Below, one piece after another: positions 16,291 through 27,525 of a DNA stretch of 27,525 nt (its first letter is position 1; each line of letters opens with the position of its first letter). The notes under the pieces were generated by a model. The model was not told where the DNA came from and ran no database searches. It worked only from the letters and a program-made list of their open reading frames with translations. Source of the DNA: a virus; IMG/VR virus record IMGVR_UViG_3300042691_025214, positions 1 through 27,525 of that record. One strand, written 5' to 3'. The position numbers were made by a program, and so were the translations under genes.

Positions 16291-16456
16291 TTTTTCTATT
16301 TTTAAACCAGTCTATAATTCTGAGTATATTAAGCGTTAAAGCTGTTAATAACACAGCTGCTGTGATAAATGGAGTAAACTTCATTATAAACGCTAATACA
16401 CCGCCTATAGTTAAAGTATCACTCGCTACACTAATTAATGTTGAATCGTGTTGCAT
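16253..16456 (-). CDS. Small membrane protein, holin-like
   Basis: 67 residues. One long or two close hydrophobic segments (about 14-50: LTIGGVLAFIMKF, then TPFITAAVLLTALTLNILRIIDWF) followed by a strongly basic tail (KNRKNANTKTRTRTKG). This layout is typical of small holins and of some virion-associated membrane proteins. The ATG shares an A with the protease stop (TAATG at 16456). No endolysin is recognised nearby, so the holin call is tentative, and its position inside the head module is unusual for a lysis gene. Confidence 0.5.
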   Translation of the reverse strand: MQHDSTLISVASDTLTIGGVLAFIMKFTPFITAAVLLTALTLNILRIIDWFKNRKNANTKTRTRTKG

Positions 16457-18096
16457 TATTTTTTAGTAAGTACGTTATTGTAAAAGTATCCTTCAACACT
16501 AAAACCTTTAACCTTACCTGTTTTTACATATTCGTTCCAAACACGTCTATTGTCAATTTTGTACATTCCATACCATTGACCTGTAATAGGTTGGAAACCA
16601 TATAATACTGATTTATCAGCTTCTGGATCTTTAACAATCCAAGTTTCAACTAAGTAAGCATCATCAACTCTATGAGCACCATCATGTTCAATGTTAACTG
16701 AATCAACTAATTTGTCTTGCATCATTTTATATGCAATTTTTTCAATTGTTTCTTTAGAGAAAAATACTTGATATTCCTCACCTGTTTTTTCATCAACACG
16801 AGGTATTAATTTACCTGGAGTCATTAATGGACCTACTAACATTTGCTTTTCAGCTAATTCAGAGGCAAAATTACGTTTTTGACCTGTTGATGCTTCATTA
16901 ATAAAGTTAGGTAATCCAGCTACATTAATTTCAAAATCTTCTTTAGGTACACAGTTAGGTACTTTACGACCATTTTTAGTTTTCAAACCAATTGCTCTAT
17001 ATCCAGCTTGACAAGCATCATCTAATCCTTCAAACTCACCATTCTCTAATAACCATTCTAATATTTCTTGATCTTCAAAGGCATTAGGTTCATTTGTAGG
17101 TTGTTGAGGAATGTTTGATTTCAAAACAGACATTTCTTGTTTTATAAGTTCCTCTACTATAACCGCCTCAGGATCAACTAACGCAAAATTATGTTTAGTT
17201 GCATAGTCGTCGTTATTAGTCACTATATAGAACTTATCTAAGTAAGCCATACGCTCACCTATTCTCATTCCTTCTAACACATCTGTTTTATACTTAAATT
17301 TACTCATTAAGTATTCAGTATAAGCATTACCAGCCAAGAACATAAAACGATCATACTGTAAACTGTATTTATCTAATATTTGACTGTATACTTTATTTGC
17401 CCAATCTTTCTTTTGTTGTACTGAAAAATTCTTTAATGTTAAATCATAAGGCTCAATTACTTTATCTAAATCAGTCAAATAATATTTGGCAGATAAGATT
17501 TTGATATAATCATCATCTTTTTGTTGTTTACGAGCAAATGTTAATGATTTTTTAAATAATGCTGAATCATACATTTCTTCAGCAGCACACTTATAATCTA
17601 ATTTTTCTGAAGAACAAGAAATTAAATAAACATCTTTACCTTCATCTGAGAATTTAGAAAATTCAATACCTGCTTGACGTAATTTCTTTTCGGCCCAAGG
17701 TAATGCTGCTTCTCCACCCCATAACAAGTATGAAATATACCCACAAGCATTATAATCTTTTCTACGTGTAGCCAATTCGAAATTACCTTTTTGTCTAATT
17801 AAGAATGAACGCATACGTTGAATAGTATCAAGTGATAATTTTTCACCATTTACTAATTGTTGTGCTCTTACTTTACCCACTTGGGTAGCACATTTCATAT
17901 TGTTTTTTTCATTTAATTCAATACCACGTTTAGCTGCATCAACAGCTGCTTGTGGATAGTCATTGTATGTCATTTCAGCCATACTAACTTTATTAAATGC
18001 GATAAAATTTTCTTCTATGGCAGGTGATTCAACTAATGCCGTAGCATCAAATCCTGAAATTATTGAATCATCTATTTTAAGTTCTACTATTTTCAT
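16456..18096 (-). CDS. XkdF-like capsid protease fused to a DUF6884-like domain
   Basis: A 546-residue multidomain protein. 1-35: typical phage protease start (FDATALVESPAIEENFIAF). About 45-140: a small helical domain (DYPQAAVDAAKRGIELNEKN ... WGGEAALPWAEKKLRQ) common in Bacteroidota phage head proteins. About 155-287: DUF6884-like (VYLISCSSEKLDYKC, MYDSALFKKSLTFAR, KILSAKYYLTDLDKVIEPYD, FMFLAGNAYTEYL). About 410-540: XkdF-type prohead serine protease with His471 in NIEHDG and Ser533 in KGFSVEGYF. The protease would mature the scaffold and capsid. The inserted domain, of unknown chemistry, is the oddity. TAATG overlaps join it to the genes on either side. Confidence 0.8.
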   Translation of the reverse strand: MKIVELKIDDSIISGFDATALVESPAIEENFIAFNKVSMAEMTYNDYPQAAVDAAKRGIELNEKNNMKCATQVGKVRAQQLVNGEKLSLDTIQRMRSFLIRQKGNFELATRRKDYNACGYISYLLWGGEAALPWAEKKLRQAGIEFSKFSDEGKDVYLISCSSEKLDYKCAAEEMYDSALFKKSLTFARKQQKDDDYIKILSAKYYLTDLDKVIEPYDLTLKNFSVQQKKDWANKVYSQILDKYSLQYDRFMFLAGNAYTEYLMSKFKYKTDVLEGMRIGERMAYLDKFYIVTNNDDYATKHNFALVDPEAVIVEELIKQEMSVLKSNIPQQPTNEPNAFEDQEILEWLLENGEFEGLDDACQAGYRAIGLKTKNGRKVPNCVPKEDFEINVAGLPNFINEASTGQKRNFASELAEKQMLVGPLMTPGKLIPRVDEKTGEEYQVFFSKETIEKIAYKMMQDKLVDSVNIEHDGAHRVDDAYLVETWIVKDPEADKSVLYGFQPITGQWYGMYKIDNRRVWNEYVKTGKVKGFSVEGYFYNNVLTKK

Positions 18097-19961
18097 TAGA
18101 ATTGTCTTCTTTGGTTAATTTTTGCTTCAGCAGCTTGTGCACTTGTCACATCACCAGCTAATACATATGTTTTAAAAACGCCGCCTCGTGGTCCTCCTGT
18201 TTGTGAACCTCCAAAACCACCTGCTATTGGAGCTACTGATGGAGTGGTATTTGTTCCAAATCCTCCAAATTGTGATTGAGCAACACCAGCATTAGGTAAT
18301 GATGGAGTTGAAGGAACTGTTGGACCTGAAGCTGTTCCTGAACCTCCACTATTTAAAATAGCTTTGGCTCTTGATGCAGCACCTAATACTGCAGCAATTT
18401 GTGAGGCATAAAATATAGGGAAAGCAAACGGTGCTGCAGGTCCTGTTGCTTTGGCTCCTTTTTGAGCAATGTCTAAAGCATTTATAAATCCAACTCCTGT
18501 ACCAATTGCAATGTCTGCTAATGCTGCTGCTTTAGCGGCTGTACTACCTTCTTTAAATAGTCCTCCTAAAGCAACTAATGCACCTCTTGATGCTGCTACA
18601 AATTCTGCCTCAGCAGATGCTTTAGCTTGAGCTGTTGCTTCAGTACTTGCTAATGACTCAGCATCTAATCTTTTTTGTTCTTCTACTCGTTTTTCTTGTA
18701 AAGCAGTTTCAGCATCATTAAGTTCAGCGGTTGCTACAACTTGTAAATCAGCATATTTTTTATCAATAGAAGCTAATGCTTCAGCATTACCCGCGGCAGC
18801 AATTTGTTCTTGTATAAATGATTCTTGTAAAGCAGCTAATTTATTTTCATAAGCAATTTGTACCGCTAAATCCTCATTTTCTGCTTCAGCTAATCGTCTT
18901 TGACGAGCAGCATCTGCTGCACTTAATTCAGCTGAAACTCTTTCATCTAAAGCAGCAGCTTGGTCTGCTGCAATTTGTTTTAAACGTTCTGCTTCTTTTT
19001 CAGCAGCTGCTATTCTTTTAGCTCTACGTTTTTCTGCTTTTTGTTCAGCATCATTTTCACGTGCTTCTGTAGTTGATATTTTATCTAATTCTAAAGCATC
19101 TTCAGCTGCATTTCTTTTAGCTTTTGCTTCTGCTCTTACTTTATCATATTTTTCTATAATAGCTTTTTCTGCCTCAGAACCTTTTGCAACTCGAGCTACT
19201 TCTTCTTCTTGTGCTTTATTAGCAGCGACAGTAGCTGCTCTGGCTTCTTCACGTTGACGAATAAGTGCATTTTGTCTAATTGCAGCTACTTCATCAATTG
19301 ATTTACCTTCAGCTTTAGCTCTGGCTTCAGCCAATTTAGCTTCTCTATTATAGAAATCAGAAGCTTCTTTAGCTTTAGCTAATTGACGATCAAATGATTC
19401 TTCTGTTTTTGCATTTGCTTCAGCGGCTTTAGTACCAAATATATCAAATGCATCTGCTAATGCTGTTACAGCTAATATAATAGCACCAATACCTAATCCA
19501 GCTAAAGCAACACGTGTAACGTTAATTGCTCCTGTGGCTGTAGTAAATGCGGCTTTAAATGAAGAACCTAATAATTTATTAGCTGATACTAATGAGTTAG
19601 ATACATCCCTTATTCCTGAAACAACACCAATTACACCTAATAATTTCTTTTCAGCATCCTCGATTGCTTTAGATTCAGCTCCAAAGGCAATAAATGCAGA
19701 ACTAACTGCACCTACCGCACCTGTTAAACCATTGAAAGTATCAACTAACGCTGTTGCGCGTTGTTCTTTATCTAAACCTTCAAATTGTAGTTCAACATCT
19801 TTTAATTGAGATTTTACTCCCTTAATTTTATTACCTAACTCATTAAATCCTGGATCACCAATTTTAAGTGTCTTAAATTGAGCTTCTAAGGATTGTAAGT
19901 CCTGTTCCAGTTCATTTACTGATTTACTATTGACTGCGACGTCTATGCTAAATGTAGCCAT
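18096..19961 (-). CDS. Tape measure protein
   Basis: 621 residues. The N-terminus (ELEQDLQSLEAQFKTLKIGD) is coiled-coil, then a hydrophobic segment (about 147-176, VALAGLGIGAIILAVTALAD), then a long Ala/Glu/Lys/Arg-rich coiled-coil (about 180-440), a second hydrophobic patch (about 465-520, AKAAALADIAIGTGVGFINA), and a Gly/Ser/Pro-rich C-terminus. This is the standard tape-measure plan. At about 0.15 nm per residue (established for siphophages) the tail would be roughly 90 nm. It is encoded after, not before, the two large tail proteins, which departs from the usual order. Confidence 0.85.
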   Translation of the reverse strand: MATFSIDVAVNSKSVNELEQDLQSLEAQFKTLKIGDPGFNELGNKIKGVKSQLKDVELQFEGLDKEQRATALVDTFNGLTGAVGAVSSAFIAFGAESKAIEDAEKKLLGVIGVVSGIRDVSNSLVSANKLLGSSFKAAFTTATGAINVTRVALAGLGIGAIILAVTALADAFDIFGTKAAEANAKTEESFDRQLAKAKEASDFYNREAKLAEARAKAEGKSIDEVAAIRQNALIRQREEARAATVAANKAQEEEVARVAKGSEAEKAIIEKYDKVRAEAKAKRNAAEDALELDKISTTEARENDAEQKAEKRRAKRIAAAEKEAERLKQIAADQAAALDERVSAELSAADAARQRRLAEAENEDLAVQIAYENKLAALQESFIQEQIAAAGNAEALASIDKKYADLQVVATAELNDAETALQEKRVEEQKRLDAESLASTEATAQAKASAEAEFVAASRGALVALGGLFKEGSTAAKAAALADIAIGTGVGFINALDIAQKGAKATGPAAPFAFPIFYASQIAAVLGAASRAKAILNSGGSGTASGPTVPSTPSLPNAGVAQSQFGGFGTNTTPSVAPIAGGFGGSQTGGPRGGVFKTYVLAGDVTSAQAAEAKINQRRQF

Positions 19962-19980: not shown

Positions 19981-22900
19981 TTAATACATTGAATTAAAAG
20001 TTGCTATAATTGAAGGAATAGCTGGATAAACTCCTGGAACTCCTGCAACATAATCTATATAAAGATTATTATTAGTAGCGGTCCAAGCTAACTCCCAATA
20101 ATCACCAGCAGAACCACTTACAAAGAAATTCCAAGCAGCAACAAATCGTTCATTAGCTCCTCCAGGAAGGTGAACTGAAGTATTTGAATTAGCTACATCA
20201 GTACCATTTTTTCTTAACCAAATCCAACACGTTTCTCCTCCTCCAGAACTTATATTAAGCTGAGCACTAAATGCTAAGTTATAAGCACCTGGTTCTGAAA
20301 TAGTAAATCGTGAACTTGATACTAATGTTATTCCTCTATTAAAATCAACAGTGTCGAATGTCATTACTGATGCTGTTAAAGCACCATCTATTGTTTGGTC
20401 TGTAGTATCATAAACTGAAATAAATGATGCTGTTGTAGCTACACTACCTGTTGTTCCTCCAAATGGCCAACAATCTCCATTCACACATAAACTACCTGTA
20501 ATATCTACAGAACCAGTATACTGAGCACTATTCTGAGTAATTGAATTACCCATATATACAGTACCTGTATTATAAGTATCTAATATAACTGTAGGAAAGA
20601 ATATAGCTGTGTTTTGAGTATCTTGAGGTATAGCTCCATTATTACCAACTGATATTACATTATTAGCTGTTTCATCATAATCAGCATTACCAATAATTAA
20701 AATATTAGGATTGTAAATAAATGGTTTTGTTTGATCCCAAATAACATCGGTACCATAAACCTCATTAGCATCACGTGTACCTGCTTGAAATAAAAGTTCT
20801 GATGAAGTAACCGGTTGATTACTTACAAAATATGAGTACGATGTTGTACCATTTTCATTATAATCATTTTGAATTACATCCTCGTATGTTTGAGGATCAA
20901 GATAAATTCTTCTACGTGGAAATTGTAATTTACGAGGTAATGTCTTTAACAATTCAACTTGTGTTGATTGTTTATCAATTAAGTTAGCACCTTGTATTTT
21001 ATTAATTCTATAGTAATGCCCATCAATAAAGATCTTATCGTTTAATTGTATACGTTCAATTTCAGTTGGATTTAAAACAACATTCATTGTTACTAAACGA
21101 GTATCTACATCATATAATTCGTTTATATAATAAGCCCAATATGTTGAATAAGCATCATTACTTGTTCTTCCATTAACATAGTTTTGCTGATAAGGATAGA
21201 AATCTAAGTTATTAAAATGTATATCAAATGATGAAGAGAAACTTGCAGGCGATTCAGATAAACCTCCTAATGTTCTATAGTAATTAACAGGTATAGTATT
21301 TCCACTATCATCTTTAACATAATAATATCCTCTAACAGAACCTGACACACCATAAGCTTCAGTTGCAGGTACTGTTTTTAAAGATTGTTTATGTAATAAA
21401 CGTGGTTTGAATTTATATGGTTGACCATATTTGTTTTCTTCTTTCTTATAAATTTGAGGAATAACAGTTGTATAACCATTTTGAATACCCTTAACAGGAG
21501 TAGCTGCAAATATAGTTTTAATTGTTTTAGTACCTTCAGTTAAATCAGAATCTGAATAGTAATTGTATTCACCATATGTGTTATTAAATGTTGAGTTTTG
21601 ATATTTGTTAATTACATCCTCATCAGTATCATCAGTGAATAATATTTCTTTAGGTTGATCTCCTAATGGGTGTCTAATTTCCCATTTAACATTTCTATCT
21701 ACTTTATTAGTCCAATCAACAATAACACCTTGATCAACCCAAGTATTAAATGGTTCAATACGTAATAAGTTTCTTTCACCTTTAACAGGTTCAATTACTA
21801 AATTATATTTTAAAACTAAACTTTGAATAAAGTCAAGTATTTTTATATCCTCAGGAAATTGTAAACCCATATCTACAATTCCTAATTCAGTAGAAGGAGG
21901 ACCAAGTACTTTTAACCAAGTATTAGTTCCTGTTTGAACTCCAATAGTTTCAGCAGCTGAGAATCCATCACCGAATACCTCAACTTGAATAAAATCAGTT
22001 TGATTTAATGTTACCTGAAATGGTCCTAAATTTATATTACCTGAACTGATGCCAGGTATTCTTCTAACATAAGTTTGTAATGCTGTAGTACCATTTTTTA
22101 GTACTCTAATTCCTATTGTTCTTGTAGGATCAGGTCCTCCATAATTATTAATTACAAAAGGAATAGCAGCATTTATAGTATAAGCACCTCTAACATCAGC
22201 AGTATACTTATAAAGACCAGTATCATAATTACCTCCATTATCATAAACTTCAGCATTGTATTCTACAGGATAGTAAGTACCATCCATAACAATACTTTGT
22301 GTTGTACCCGTTCTATAAGCGTATACTGACTGCGAAACATAGTTGTTAATAGCAGGTCCTTTAAATTCATTAGCTGTGGTTAATAGATAAACACTTTGAA
22401 AATAAGCACTATTTAAAAACGATGAAGTATACTTATAATTAACAGTATCAAAAATAGTATCCATTACAGCTTTAGCTCTAATGGCTGGTTTTAAATCTTG
22501 TGGTCTTAAAGGATAATTAATATTATCAATTTGAAAATCACCTCCTCCAAATTCAATATTTGCTGAAGATGTATAGTTAGGATCTTTACCATAATGAACT
22601 AATGGGTATAAAATATCTCCATTAAGTAATTGATCATTCCACGATTGTGAAATAGCAGTCCAACTTGAAGTATGATTATAAGCACTCCAGTTTAAATCAG
22701 CTAATGCACGAGTGTCAATTTGAGTTCTAAAATCAACTGTTTCATTTACTACAGCACAATTGTAAATTACATCATTGTATTGATCTGTAATAATGTTGTT
22801 TAAGTATAATTTGCCTGTATATACAGCTTGACCATCAACTAATACTTGACAAGGTACTGTATGTGTTAATCCAATTGCTGGAGTAGTACCTAAATCAAAT

Positions 22901-23100
22901 AAGTTATTAAAGAATTGGTTATTAATATCAGTACCAGGCAAAGCAAATTCCTGAGACGATATCCCATAAATTTTTCCTATATCATCAGACTGAATAGCTG
23001 AGATGTCTAATAAAAATTGAGGATCATTTGTTAATTCAAGATCAAATTTCTCTTGATCATCATTTATAGCTCTTAATATTACTTGATACTGTGTGGCCAT
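19981..23100 (-). CDS. Large tail-tip protein with C1q-like C-terminal domain
   Basis: 1039 residues. The first 450 residues start with a conserved tail-tip-like segment (LLDISAIQSDDIGKIYGISS, SQEFALPGTDINNQFFNNLF) and look beta-rich; the centre includes LDFIQSLVLKYNLVIEPVKG and IFIDGHYYRINKI, motifs of baseplate-hub-like proteins. After a GSVDITGSLCVNGDCWPFGG linker, residues about 880-1039 form a C1q/TNF-like jelly roll (GAYNLAFSAQLNISSGG, CWIWLRKNGTDVANS, GDYWELAWTATNN, PSIIATFNSMY) common at phage fibre tips. It probably serves as tail hub and receptor contact. TAATG overlap joins it to the 467-residue gene. Confidence 0.75.
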   Translation of the reverse strand: MATQYQVILRAINDDQEKFDLELTNDPQFLLDISAIQSDDIGKIYGISSQEFALPGTDINNQFFNNLFDLGTTPAIGLTHTVPCQVLVDGQAVYTGKLYLNNIITDQYNDVIYNCAVVNETVDFRTQIDTRALADLNWSAYNHTSSWTAISQSWNDQLLNGDILYPLVHYGKDPNYTSSANIEFGGGDFQIDNINYPLRPQDLKPAIRAKAVMDTIFDTVNYKYTSSFLNSAYFQSVYLLTTANEFKGPAINNYVSQSVYAYRTGTTQSIVMDGTYYPVEYNAEVYDNGGNYDTGLYKYTADVRGAYTINAAIPFVINNYGGPDPTRTIGIRVLKNGTTALQTYVRRIPGISSGNINLGPFQVTLNQTDFIQVEVFGDGFSAAETIGVQTGTNTWLKVLGPPSTELGIVDMGLQFPEDIKILDFIQSLVLKYNLVIEPVKGERNLLRIEPFNTWVDQGVIVDWTNKVDRNVKWEIRHPLGDQPKEILFTDDTDEDVINKYQNSTFNNTYGEYNYYSDSDLTEGTKTIKTIFAATPVKGIQNGYTTVIPQIYKKEENKYGQPYKFKPRLLHKQSLKTVPATEAYGVSGSVRGYYYVKDDSGNTIPVNYYRTLGGLSESPASFSSSFDIHFNNLDFYPYQQNYVNGRTSNDAYSTYWAYYINELYDVDTRLVTMNVVLNPTEIERIQLNDKIFIDGHYYRINKIQGANLIDKQSTQVELLKTLPRKLQFPRRRIYLDPQTYEDVIQNDYNENGTTSYSYFVSNQPVTSSELLFQAGTRDANEVYGTDVIWDQTKPFIYNPNILIIGNADYDETANNVISVGNNGAIPQDTQNTAIFFPTVILDTYNTGTVYMGNSITQNSAQYTGSVDITGSLCVNGDCWPFGGTTGSVATTASFISVYDTTDQTIDGALTASVMTFDTVDFNRGITLVSSSRFTISEPGAYNLAFSAQLNISSGGGETCWIWLRKNGTDVANSNTSVHLPGGANERFVAAWNFFVSGSAGDYWELAWTATNNNLYIDYVAGVPGVYPAIPSIIATFNSMY

Positions 23101-24504: not shown

Positions 24505-24951
24505 TTATTTTAAAATTTGTTTTGCTATTGTGTCTATTGCTTTACCAAATATACCTGTTAAATCTTTACTTAATACTGTAGTGATAGCAGGTTCAATAAA
24601 TGGAAATGCTTGTCTTCTTGTTTGGCCTCGTTTACCTATAGAACGTTGAATAACATAAGGTAATTGTTTTGCTGTAATACCACCTCGAGGTGTAATACCA
24701 TTTTTAGCAATCCAGAATCTAATTGCTTTAATTGGAGGTACTCTACCAGGACCACGTTCGTGTCCATCATTAACCCATTTACCATAATCAAGCATACTAA
24801 TTACTAATCTATCACTCTGAACTGTTGCTTCAATTGAATTAGCTAACATTCCAGTGTTATCATTATTATTACGTTGTAAGTTAGCTTTCATCTGATCTAC
24901 GATCTGATTACCAACTTGCTGTATTGCTTGATTTAAAGGTGTTTGCGCCAT
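24505..24951 (-). CDS. HK97 gp10-like neck/tail completion protein
   Basis: 148 residues. Pattern of the HK97 gp10 family: N-terminal helix (AIQQVGNQIVDQMKANLQRN), TGMLANSIEATVQ, strand DRLVISMLDYGKWVNDGHER then GPGRVPPIKAIRFWI, an RRQAFPFIEPAI motif and a C-terminal helix. These proteins sit in the neck and help close the head-tail joint. The ATG overlaps the stop of the tail-terminator-like gene (TAATG at 24951). Confidence 0.75.
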   Translation of the reverse strand: MAQTPLNQAIQQVGNQIVDQMKANLQRNNNDNTGMLANSIEATVQSDRLVISMLDYGKWVNDGHERGPGRVPPIKAIRFWIAKNGITPRGGITAKQLPYVIQRSIGKRGQTRRQAFPFIEPAITTVLSKDLTGIFGKAIDTIAKQILK

Positions 24952-25423: not shown

Positions 25424-25663
25424 TTAACAGTTGCAATCCTCAGTTGGAGGAAGTTTATCTAAAATTGTTTGTAATTCAGTTTCGGTTAATCCGAACATTG
25501 CTTGTAATGCAGGAAAATTTAATTCATTTCTACGCATTGCAATAGATGCCTCTAATTCTGTTAATCCAGGTTCAGTGGCTCCAAATGCTTTTCTATTAAC
25601 TTTGCTAACTATTTCTTCTTGGAAATTAGTTAACTCGTTGTTGTTGTTGTCTAAGTTGTTCAT
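25424..25663 (-). CDS. Unknown 79-residue protein of the tail module
   Basis: Helical protein beginning MNNLDNNNNELTNFQEEIVS; the middle (ELEASIAMRRNELNFPALQA) and end (ETELQTILDKLPPTEDCNC) look like short amphipathic helices. No known family. It overlaps the end of the -1 frame of the chaperone gene by 38 bases, where a CAA repeat encodes Gln in one frame and Asn in the other. It could be a structural or assembly factor. Confidence 0.6.
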   Translation of the reverse strand: MNNLDNNNNELTNFQEEIVSKVNRKAFGATEPGLTELEASIAMRRNELNFPALQAMFGLTETELQTILDKLPPTEDCNC

Positions 25664-25919
25664 TTTTTTCTAATTGTATTTCAGTTAACATTGATAAATA
25701 ATCAAATGCAAATATTGTATTTAAATCTGTTACGCATTTATCTCCAGTGATGTGTAAGACGGAACTCTTAGCAAGTTCATTGAGGATATATAACCAACCG
25801 TAATGCGCGCTAATGCTCTTTGAATCTTGGAGTTTTTCTTCGTCACTTCGTTCATCATTAACTCCCATTGTAGGGAAGAGGACTCCGTATTTTTTGATAA
25901 TAAGTGATTGCTGCCTAAA
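25626..25919 (-). CDS. -1 frameshift extension of the chaperone gene
   Basis: This is the second part of a 280-residue fusion reached by a -1 shift at the UUUUUUA heptamer (25922-25916). The frame is open from there to the TAA at 25626. Seventeen codons (TTT, then RQQSLIIKKYGVLFPT) precede an internal Met, and then follows the helical region ISAHYGWLYILNELAKSSVL, HITGDKCVTDLNTIFAF, DYLSMLTEIQLEKNEQLRQQ. That helical, conserved-looking sequence suits a T-domain that recruits tape measure. The internal ATG at 25868 could also start an independent 80-residue protein. Confidence 0.65.
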   Translation of the reverse strand, partial: FRQQSLIIKKYGVLFPTMGVNDERSDEEKLQDSKSISAHYGWLYILNELAKSSVLHITGDKCVTDLNTIFAFDYLSMLTEIQLEKNEQLRQQQQRVN

Positions 25920-26467
25920 AAAAAACCCAAAGCACCTAACGCTACTGATGCTGGAAAATTATCATACTGTGATGCTATTTCAACTCGTTTAGTATGATCA
26001 TATTTTTCTATATCATAATAATCAAATCCATTTTCTACTTGTCCCTGAAGTACTTTAAATGTTTGTTTAGTAATCCATTTACTTGAATTTAATTTATTTT
26101 TAGTAATTGGACGATATAAGATAGCTAAAATATCATTAATGTTTCTATCAGTATCTTTAATCAACATATCAACATCAACATACTCATCTAAATTCATTTT
26201 ATGCATTGGTCTATAACCATATTGTTTACCTTCCCATTCAATAACAGGATAAAATTCAGGTTCAACATTAATTATAAGCTCGTTTAAACGCGCATATAAT
26301 TGTATAATAAACGGAATAGGCCATTGTCTAACGGTTTCCATTGATTCGCCAGTTAATGTTGTTATAACGTGAAGTCTTTGTTCCATCTCATCTAATGATT
26401 TTAGAACACTAAACTGCTTATAATGCTTGACAGTAAAATAATCTGGTATATTTGTTGTAATTTGCAT
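25730..26467 (-). CDS. Tail assembly chaperone (G-like, frameshift site inside)
   Basis: In the zero frame this gene gives 245 residues. 1-180 look genuine: FTVKHYKQFSVLKSLDEMEQ, TGESMETVRQWPIPFIIQLY, PEFYPVIEWEGKQYGYRPMH and YVDVDMLIKDTDRNINDILA are characteristic of chaperone-like proteins before the tail genes of Bacteroidota siphophages. After Phe183 the zero frame becomes low in pattern, whereas the -1 frame is protein-like. At 25925-25917 lies T9, containing U UUU UUA in frame with codons 183-184. The gene therefore matches the lambda G/GT plan. It starts the long virion block; a TATTTATAA box lies 3 bases before the ATG. Confidence 0.75.
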   Translation of the reverse strand: MQITTNIPDYFTVKHYKQFSVLKSLDEMEQRLHVITTLTGESMETVRQWPIPFIIQLYARLNELIINVEPEFYPVIEWEGKQYGYRPMHKMNLDEYVDVDMLIKDTDRNINDILAILYRPITKNKLNSSKWITKQTFKVLQGQVENGFDYYDIEKYDHTKRVEIASQYDNFPASVALGALGFFLGSNHLLSKNTESSSLQWELMMNEVTKKNSKIQRALARITVGYISSMNLLRVPSYTSLEINA

Positions 26468-26470
26468 CTG

Positions 26471-26479
26471 TTATAAATA
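26471..26479 (-). promoter_or_regulatory. TATTTATAA box before chaperone gene
   Basis: The minus-strand sequence TATTTATAA ends 3 bases before the ATG at 26467, in the gap after the 26518-26535 terminator. A start for the virion block is needed here. The same box precedes the scaffold gene. If it is a -10-like element the mRNA would be nearly leaderless; otherwise it is an AT-rich initiation context. Confidence 0.35.
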
Positions 26480-26517
26480 TGTGTGATGAACGTTTTTGAA
26501 AGTAAAATTAAACAAAA

Positions 26518-26535
26518 GAACCCCTTTCGGGGTTC
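26518..26535 (-). terminator. Rho-independent terminator after the lipoprotein unit
   Basis: GAACCCC and GGGGTTC form a perfect 7-bp stem with a 4-nt loop. On the minus strand it is followed by TTTTGTTTAATTTT. It ends the two-gene lipoprotein unit and separates it from the virion block. Confidence 0.85.
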
Positions 26536-26563
26536 AATTGCGTTATTAAATTAGACTGTTACT

Positions 26564-26764
26564 TTATGCCTTATATTGTTCTATTTCTTCTACTTTTTCT
26601 ACAATAACATTAAAGTTACCAATGATAGTAAAACTTGTTTCACTGTCAGTGTAATGAATTTCTACGCCTCCCATTGTTGATGTTGTTTGAGATGCTGGTC
26701 GTGATTTGGAGATAAATGTTCTAATAACTTCTCCTTTGGTCGTAACTAATTGTGTTTTATACAT
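26564..26764 (-). CDS. Unknown 66-residue protein beside the lipoprotein
   Basis: Product starts MYKTQLVTTKGEVIRTFISK and ends VIVEKVEEIEQYKA. It looks like a small beta-rich domain (GVEIHYTDSETSFTIIGNFNVIVEKV), with no transmembrane or signal segment. Its ATG lies 8 bases after the stop of the lipoprotein, and both are followed by the terminator at 26518-26535, so they form one unit. Function unknown; a cytoplasmic partner or immunity-type protein is possible. Confidence 0.6.
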   Translation of the reverse strand: MYKTQLVTTKGEVIRTFISKSRPASQTTSTMGGVEIHYTDSETSFTIIGNFNVIVEKVEEIEQYKA

Positions 26765-26772
26765 AACTTTTT

Positions 26773-27264
26773 TTATTTTTTATAAACGTGATAATCAATT
26801 CTTTTAAATGTAGGATCAGAATATTGTATATATTCTAAAACCAAATACTGATTTAAAGTATCAAAATGATGTATGTTTTGATTTTTATTAAATTGTTCAT
26901 TCTGATAATATTTTAAATCTAATCCTTTAGTTGACTTAATAACAAAAACATCTTCTCTATGATTATCAGCACCTGTATATGCTTCTGTTTTAATAACATA
27001 AAGAGTATCAATCCACATATGTTCAATTTTTATAAACTCCTCATGCCATTTAACTCCATTATGATATAAATCTTCCCAAGTATGTACTTGAAAACTATCA
27101 ATCCAAATAGTTGTATCTTTTTTAGCATCATTAGGAATAAAATACCCCCAAGTTGTTTCTACAGGTAATTTTGTTTTAGCACGTGGTGTTGGTGTAATGG
27201 GTTGTTCTTTCTGACAACTAATTAATGTTAAAACTAATAATATTAAATAACCTATTTTTCTCAT
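26773..27264 (-). CDS. Phage lipoprotein, probably surface exposed
   Basis: 163 residues. N-terminal signal peptide with a lipobox, LTLISC (Cys17 after L-I-S), preceded by MRKIGYLILLV. The residues after Cys are QKEQ, close to the Bacteroidota export signal Cys-x-Lys-(Asp/Glu) known for sending lipoproteins to the outer surface. The mature part is Trp/Tyr/Asp rich, mostly beta. Such phage lipoproteins often block superinfection by hiding or mimicking a receptor, or alter the host surface. It has its own promoter candidate (27269-27300) and, with a 66-residue partner, its own terminator, suggesting separate expression. A spanin role is an alternative. Confidence 0.7.
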   Translation of the reverse strand: MRKIGYLILLVLTLISCQKEQPITPTPRAKTKLPVETTWGYFIPNDAKKDTTIWIDSFQVHTWEDLYHNGVKWHEEFIKIEHMWIDTLYVIKTEAYTGADNHREDVFVIKSTKGLDLKYYQNEQFNKNQNIHHFDTLNQYLVLEYIQYSDPTFKRIDYHVYKK

Positions 27265-27268
27265 ACGA

Positions 27269-27300
27269 TTAATATAACATCACATTTCAGAATAGCCAAA
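27269..27300 (-). promoter_or_regulatory. Bacteroidota-type promoter candidate for lipoprotein unit
   Basis: On the minus strand TTTG (27300-27297), a 20-nt spacer and TATATTAA (27276-27269) match the spacing of the Bacteroidota consensus TTTG-N19/20-TANNTTTG; the -7 box matches at four of six fixed bases. The predicted start lies almost on the ATG at 27264. Confidence 0.45.
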
Positions 27301-27308
27301 CATAAGAA

Positions 27309-27330
27309 ACCCTCCTTTTTAGGGGAGGGT
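27309..27330 (-). terminator. Terminator of the leftward sigma-terminase block
   Basis: ACCCTCC (27309-27315) pairs with GGAGGGT (27324-27330) around an 8-nt loop; on the minus strand the stem is followed by TTCTTATGTTT. It lies downstream of the terminase block only if the contig is circular, and upstream of the lipoprotein promoter. Confidence 0.6.
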
Positions 27331-27407
27331 CGGTCCAAGGAGACTATCCAAGGAATGGTTGTCTGTAGTGTTGTTTTCTCAAAAGCGTTACATTGATAAA
27401 TATAGTG

Positions 27408-27457
27408 TGGGGGGTATAAATTTATGAAAGAAGAGCAAATACTGCTAAGACCCCCCA
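27408..27457. other. G6/C6 stem-loop in the junction region
   Basis: TGGGGGGT (27408-27415) and ACCCCCCA (27450-27457) form an 8-bp stem with a 34-nt loop. G/C runs like this stand out in an AT-rich genome. Together with the stem-loop at 30-67 it makes the junction a candidate origin, packaging or cos-proximal site. No open reading frame in the area is convincing. Confidence 0.45.
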
Positions 27458-27525
27458 TTACACACCATATTAAGAAACAAAAATCGTTGGGTACAAAAGT
27501 AATGGCAAAACTAAAAACCCAACCA
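27457..27525. repeat. Right copy of 69-bp terminal direct repeat
   Basis: Exact copy of bases 1-69. It begins one base after the C6 tract at 27451-27456. Leftward transcription from the terminase gene would cross this junction and meet a hairpin terminator at 27309-27330, which fits a circular (or concatemeric) genome. Confidence 0.95.

Follow-up and report, generated by a model that had tools for sequence, protein, structure and literature searches.

The window, by which we mean the whole 27,525-base IMG/VR virus record analysed here, derived from an uncultured phage, carries at positions 25730–26467 of its minus strand an open reading frame of 245 aa, the short product of the gene considered here according to ORF translation and a structure model. 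Codons 181–185 of this gene read GGT TTT TTT TTA GGC and contain a run of nine T's (T9; positions 25917–25925, minus strand, GG T TTT TTT TT A). A first-pass annotation, made from the sequence alone, had proposed this run as the site of a -1 shift at an in-phase U_UUU_UUA heptamer (25916–25922, minus strand), and direct reading of codons 181–184 confirms both the run and the phase. Insertion of one T, which is equivalent to a -1 shift, gives a 280-aa fusion that stops at 25628–25626, and the zero frame continues for 61 codons beyond codon 184; our recomputed products agree with those first described. The -1 frame extension, delimited by translation and alignment motifs, occupies 25626–25925 (minus strand), with 99 codons from the slip site plus a stop, and forms the C-terminal part of the fusion. 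Between 25730 and 25918 (minus strand) the zero-frame tail and the -1 extension overlap and the DNA is dual-coded, the zero frame being kept free of stops through codon choice. The next gene in the ORF list (25424–25663, minus strand; 79 aa) starts within the last part of the -1 ORF. In the structure model of the zero-frame product, residues 1–192 are predicted to be folded and residues 193–245, the tail after the site, to be disordered; the -1 domain was modelled with a pLDDT of 65.

Relatives were collected by searching IMG/VR with both halves of the gene, followed by profile searches, and removal of duplicates over 240 bases around the site left 179 unique sequences. The two halves retrieved largely one set of contigs, one of which is identical to the window over the gene. 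The run is exactly T9 in 176 of the 179 and T7 in three, which represent two lineages (L081/L082 and L084), and U_UUU_UUU (25919–25925 in the window, minus strand) is in phase in all 179. Most relatives (172/179) have the form NNT TTT TTT TTN, ending in TTG (89), TTA (77) or TTC (6); four have TTT TTT TTT ACG and the three T7 sequences have AAT TTT TTT ATG/ATA. The core is preceded by AGT, AAT, GGT, GCT, TCT, ACT, CAT, GAT or TTT, always NNT, so the residue varies between Gly, Ala, Ser, Thr, Asn, Asp, His and Phe while the third base is invariably T. The heptamer U_UUU_UUA first put forward is thus genuinely in phase in the window, but many relatives have UUG or UUC at its end and it is lost in the T7 and TTT TTT TTT ACG lineages; U_UUU_UUU, which that annotation did not mention, is the better slip core, because the T7 lineages keep only this heptamer and many relatives have UUG. 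At codon 184, TTC is seen and TTT never, with only about two TTC clades, which are too few to prove avoidance of T10. The AAAAAAT heptamer downstream (25895–25889) was also considered as a slip site and was rejected as unconserved among the relatives.

In every complete relative, down to about 30% identity, both frames are open, and past the site the zero frame extends for 50–104 codons and the -1 frame for about 93–106 (leaving aside contigs cut by an end). The alignment reveals conserved motifs in the -1 domain, namely FFF..R...lk.y..lFP, H.GW, L..L, TGD..IT.LN and NYL. Among the IMG/VR relatives there was no continuous, unshifted homologue, their matches ending in the -1 frame, and scans of GTDB genomes gave no relative. 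The first-pass annotation had proposed alignment of homologues and a search for other phages with the same layout as checks; the 179 unique relatives, together with the cultured phages P12024S/L discussed below, share the two-frame T-run layout, and the conserved run and open -1 frame across relatives bear out the idea of a -1 recoding event that joins the two frames. In AT-rich DNA such a run is not itself unusual, as one T9 was found on both strands of the window versus 3.9 expected from shuffles; what lies beyond chance is its conservation, with exact length in 176/179 relatives and an open -1 frame.

The codon usage of the overlap points to selection on both frames. Leucine in the -1 frame is encoded by TTA in 35 of 226 cases (15%) within the overlap versus 533 of 1035 (51%) elsewhere, and by CTC in 94/226 versus 30/1035. 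Since TTA followed by A or G would create a stop in the zero frame, this avoidance keeps the zero frame open, and when the -1 frame was redrawn with synonymous codons, a zero frame as long as that observed arose in fewer than 1% of redraws at most loci (P<0.01). The sequence of the zero-frame tail diverges fast, and the -1 part is a conserved domain. Over long distances, identity of the tail is 0.207 in the real sequences and 0.186 after synonymous redrawing, but shared ancestry lifts the third frame as well (0.223 versus 0.209), and we therefore claim selection for openness of the zero frame and not for its exact sequence. Since the layout is preserved in 179 distinct relatives and in a cultured marine phage, the two-frame gene is a real, selected two-protein gene. 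In two relatives (L142, 4001–4816, and L162, 4001–4837) the two frames are open over similar lengths, the zero frame reaching 97–104 codons past the site.

Cultured relatives were reached through structure. The matches of the zero-frame model in BFVD included a Nonlabens phage P12024S protein of 175 aa (prob 1.0, E 1.5e-8), encoded by P12024S_38, which lies directly after the terminase gene; the same position is seen in relative L119, and one gene lies between in L047. P12024S_38 carries CTT TTT TTT TAT, again nine T's that include an in-phase U_UUU_UUU, and its -1 frame is open for about 83 codons; P12024L and contig L182 have the same layout. Homology to the window family extends to both the N-terminal domain (hhalign E 4.9e-8) and the -1 domain (profile comparison E 9.8e-6). 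P12024S_38 and P12024L_40 (phrog_32199, of unknown function) therefore resemble the window gene in both domains, in T9 and in the post-terminase position, and differ from it in their 175-aa zero frame, their -1 part of about 83 codons and the register of their run. Both are annotated as hypothetical proteins and the fusion is absent from the annotation; P12024S_39 (L179, 23663–23830) and P12024L_41 (JQ823123, 24473–24640), separate hypothetical proteins in GenBank, correspond to the C-terminal end of the preceding gene's -1 extension. Gene callers currently miss or split the long product, and the family offers a hint of function for phrog_32199 and for these hypothetical genes. A terminase search of INPHARED for isolates closer to the window returned only remote phages. 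Flavobacterium phage 6H encodes a structurally similar protein (AGN89393.1; L180, 10352–10927, minus strand) that ends shortly after an in-phase TTTTTTC; there the -1 frame stops within a few codons, and the 300 bases that follow the gene, which carry no annotation, include a long open frame. The homologues in Nonlabens phages and this structural match suggest that the host of the phage is probably a member of the Bacteroidota.

Considering how the second frame is reached, we lean towards slippage at the ribosome, and infer both this level and the ratio of the products. One start would yield two proteins, the 245-aa frame-0 product and a presumably rarer 280-aa fusion, the latter resulting from a one-base backward slip within the nine T's. 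The tRNAs in the P and A sites (Phe-Phe or Phe-Leu) would jointly re-pair on U_UUU_UUU or U_UUU_UUA/G, and the slip would occur without an RNA structure or a Shine–Dalgarno helper. Shine–Dalgarno motifs precede just one of 24 gene starts in the window, so that this element, which normally assists -1 frameshifting in bacteria, would probably be ineffective there. Downstream stem-loops or pseudoknots are common at ribosomal -1 sites and are not obligatory. Folding of 36 loci, limited to pseudoknot-free structures, gave no conserved downstream RNA stem, with a mean z near 0 where control windows averaged -0.56. In E. coli, ribosomes slip less efficiently on U_UUU_UUU than on A_AAA_AAG (PMC5009743), and for P2 and its relatives a frameshift efficiency 2- to 3-fold above the lambda-type level has been reported (PMC5009743).

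Transcriptional slippage, which the first-pass annotation had named as an alternative to its ribosomal shift, is a serious rival that we consider possible. RNA polymerase would stutter on T9 and add one U to some mRNAs (or drop two), which ribosomes would then read normally. The constancy of T9 in 176 of 179 relatives and in P12024S/L is what such a mechanism predicts, all the more as the nine-T length is kept in three registers (NNT TTT TTT TTR, TTT TTT TTT ACG and CTT TTT TTT TAT), and the process needs no stimulator, none having been found. Long runs are also rare in all frames of the 476 kb of other coding sequence in these contigs, in which runs of at least eight T's occur once versus about 8 expected and runs of at least nine A's once versus about 29; avoidance of slippage-prone runs has been described in many bacteria at length nine (PMC1088944). 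However, the residues that the two frames encode also account for the T8 and T9 positions, and the runs of the two T7 lineages, which fall short of the nine bases of published slippage cases, hold U_UUU_UUU in phase. T9 is unspecific in this respect, as it always contains an in-phase heptamer, whatever the register, and the heptamer is thus no independent evidence for ribosomal slippage in the T9 relatives; its conservation is informative in the T7 lineages only, where it somewhat favours the ribosome. The recoding proposed at the outset stands, with its ribosomal level favoured to that extent, and both kinds of slippage may act. It is conceivable, if tentative, that in a large phage family, probably of Bacteroidota, the ratio of a chaperone pair is set by RNA polymerase slipping on exactly nine T's. 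If true, transcriptional slippage would here produce a tail-chaperone pair, with 50–100 codons kept coding in both frames. The contrast between T9 and T7 lineages amounts to a natural experiment that separates the two levels.

That the two frames are instead overlapping genes with separate starts, in which the -1 ORF is translated from its own ATG at 25868 and no fusion arises, is very improbable. There is an ATG in the -1 frame, and in GenBank a portion of the P12024S extension has a gene entry of its own, but the Met at 25868 occurs in only 5 of 67 homologues, and conservation in the -1 frame extends upstream of this Met as far as the slip site (FFF..R...lk.y..lFP). We therefore rejected 25868 as an internal start, and the first-pass annotation's own counter-case, homologues with two separately started genes, is made very unlikely by the same count. 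Least credible of all is that one frame is truly continuous, whether through an error of sequencing or assembly or through decay of the gene, since, although long homopolymers are error-prone and the window comes from a metagenome, the identical T9 in another metagenome contig (L043), the agreement of 179 unique relatives and the T9 of the two P12024S/L isolate genomes refute the sequencing indel once suggested, and selection on both frames argues against decay.

Recoding on a T-run, which the first-pass annotation contrasted with GGGAAAG, is not unusual: in phage P2, E/E+E' undergoes a -1 frameshift at TTTTTTG with no hairpin (PMC3091744). Like P2 E/E+E', the window gene combines a T-run -1 site lacking a downstream hairpin with a short product and a longer fusion in a tail or structural module, but the P2 site is T6G with products of 91/142 aa, compared to T9 and 245/280 aa here, and the window family has a zero-frame tail of 50–104 codons overlapping the -1 frame; no common family was found. 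As in lambda G/GT, a short protein is accompanied by a longer -1 fusion in a structural module, and the window gene differs from G/GT in slip sequence, size, long dual-coding overlap and the lack of a family match. Shigella mxiE and Thermus thermophilus dnaX, which use transcriptional slippage, similarly have a conserved coding homopolymer leading to two products, but these are bacterial genes and the two T7 lineages do not fit. While T-run -1 recoding is already known from P2, the conserved T9 two-frame family is a fresh variant, and represents a recoding gene that is both widespread and unannotated among phages that barely use Shine–Dalgarno motifs.

As to function, a gene of the tail-chaperone type is plausible from the layout together with weak fold hits. 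Two predicted products that share an N terminus lie within a structural module, as in G/GT, and Foldseek against BFVD gave weak matches named tail assembly chaperone (E 0.28 with prob 0.93, E 0.64 and E 0.91). The gene had no functional or chaperone match in Pfam or PHROGs and no match in the PDB by sequence or by fold, nor did a fold search with the -1 domain model give one. A G/GT gene is typically located directly before the tape-measure gene; here a probable tape-measure protein of 621 aa (18096–19961, minus strand; profile match) lies away from the slip gene, five genes (79, 161, 148, 467 and 1039 aa) intervening, and in relatives the slip gene adjoins the terminase gene. The tail chaperone first proposed thus retains the G/GT layout, but tape-measure adjacency and a Pfam/PHROG family match are both absent. 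The gene thus seems to work in the manner of G/GT, and its place in a known chaperone family is putative, though fairly likely. By analogy, the shared N-terminal domain would act as a chaperone of tail assembly, and the minority of copies with the -1 domain would gain an additional binding domain.

The gene order common to relatives is terminase (large subunit), slip gene, a gene of about 150 aa, an HK97-gp10-like gene and a gene of 430–470 aa. In the window, the HK97-gp10-like tail completion/neck protein is encoded at 24505–24951 (minus strand; profile match and synteny). The terminase (343–1590) and the slip gene, at the 26467–27525 end, are neighbours in L047 and L119, and because these genes of the left and right ends adjoin in relatives, the window may represent an almost full-length genome that is circularly permuted. 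Elsewhere, a 546-aa protein (16456–18096, minus strand) has several different PHROG matches, its C-terminal 130 residues resembling head maturation proteases, and the 1039-aa protein (19981–23100, minus strand) weakly matches a C1q domain close to its C-terminal end.
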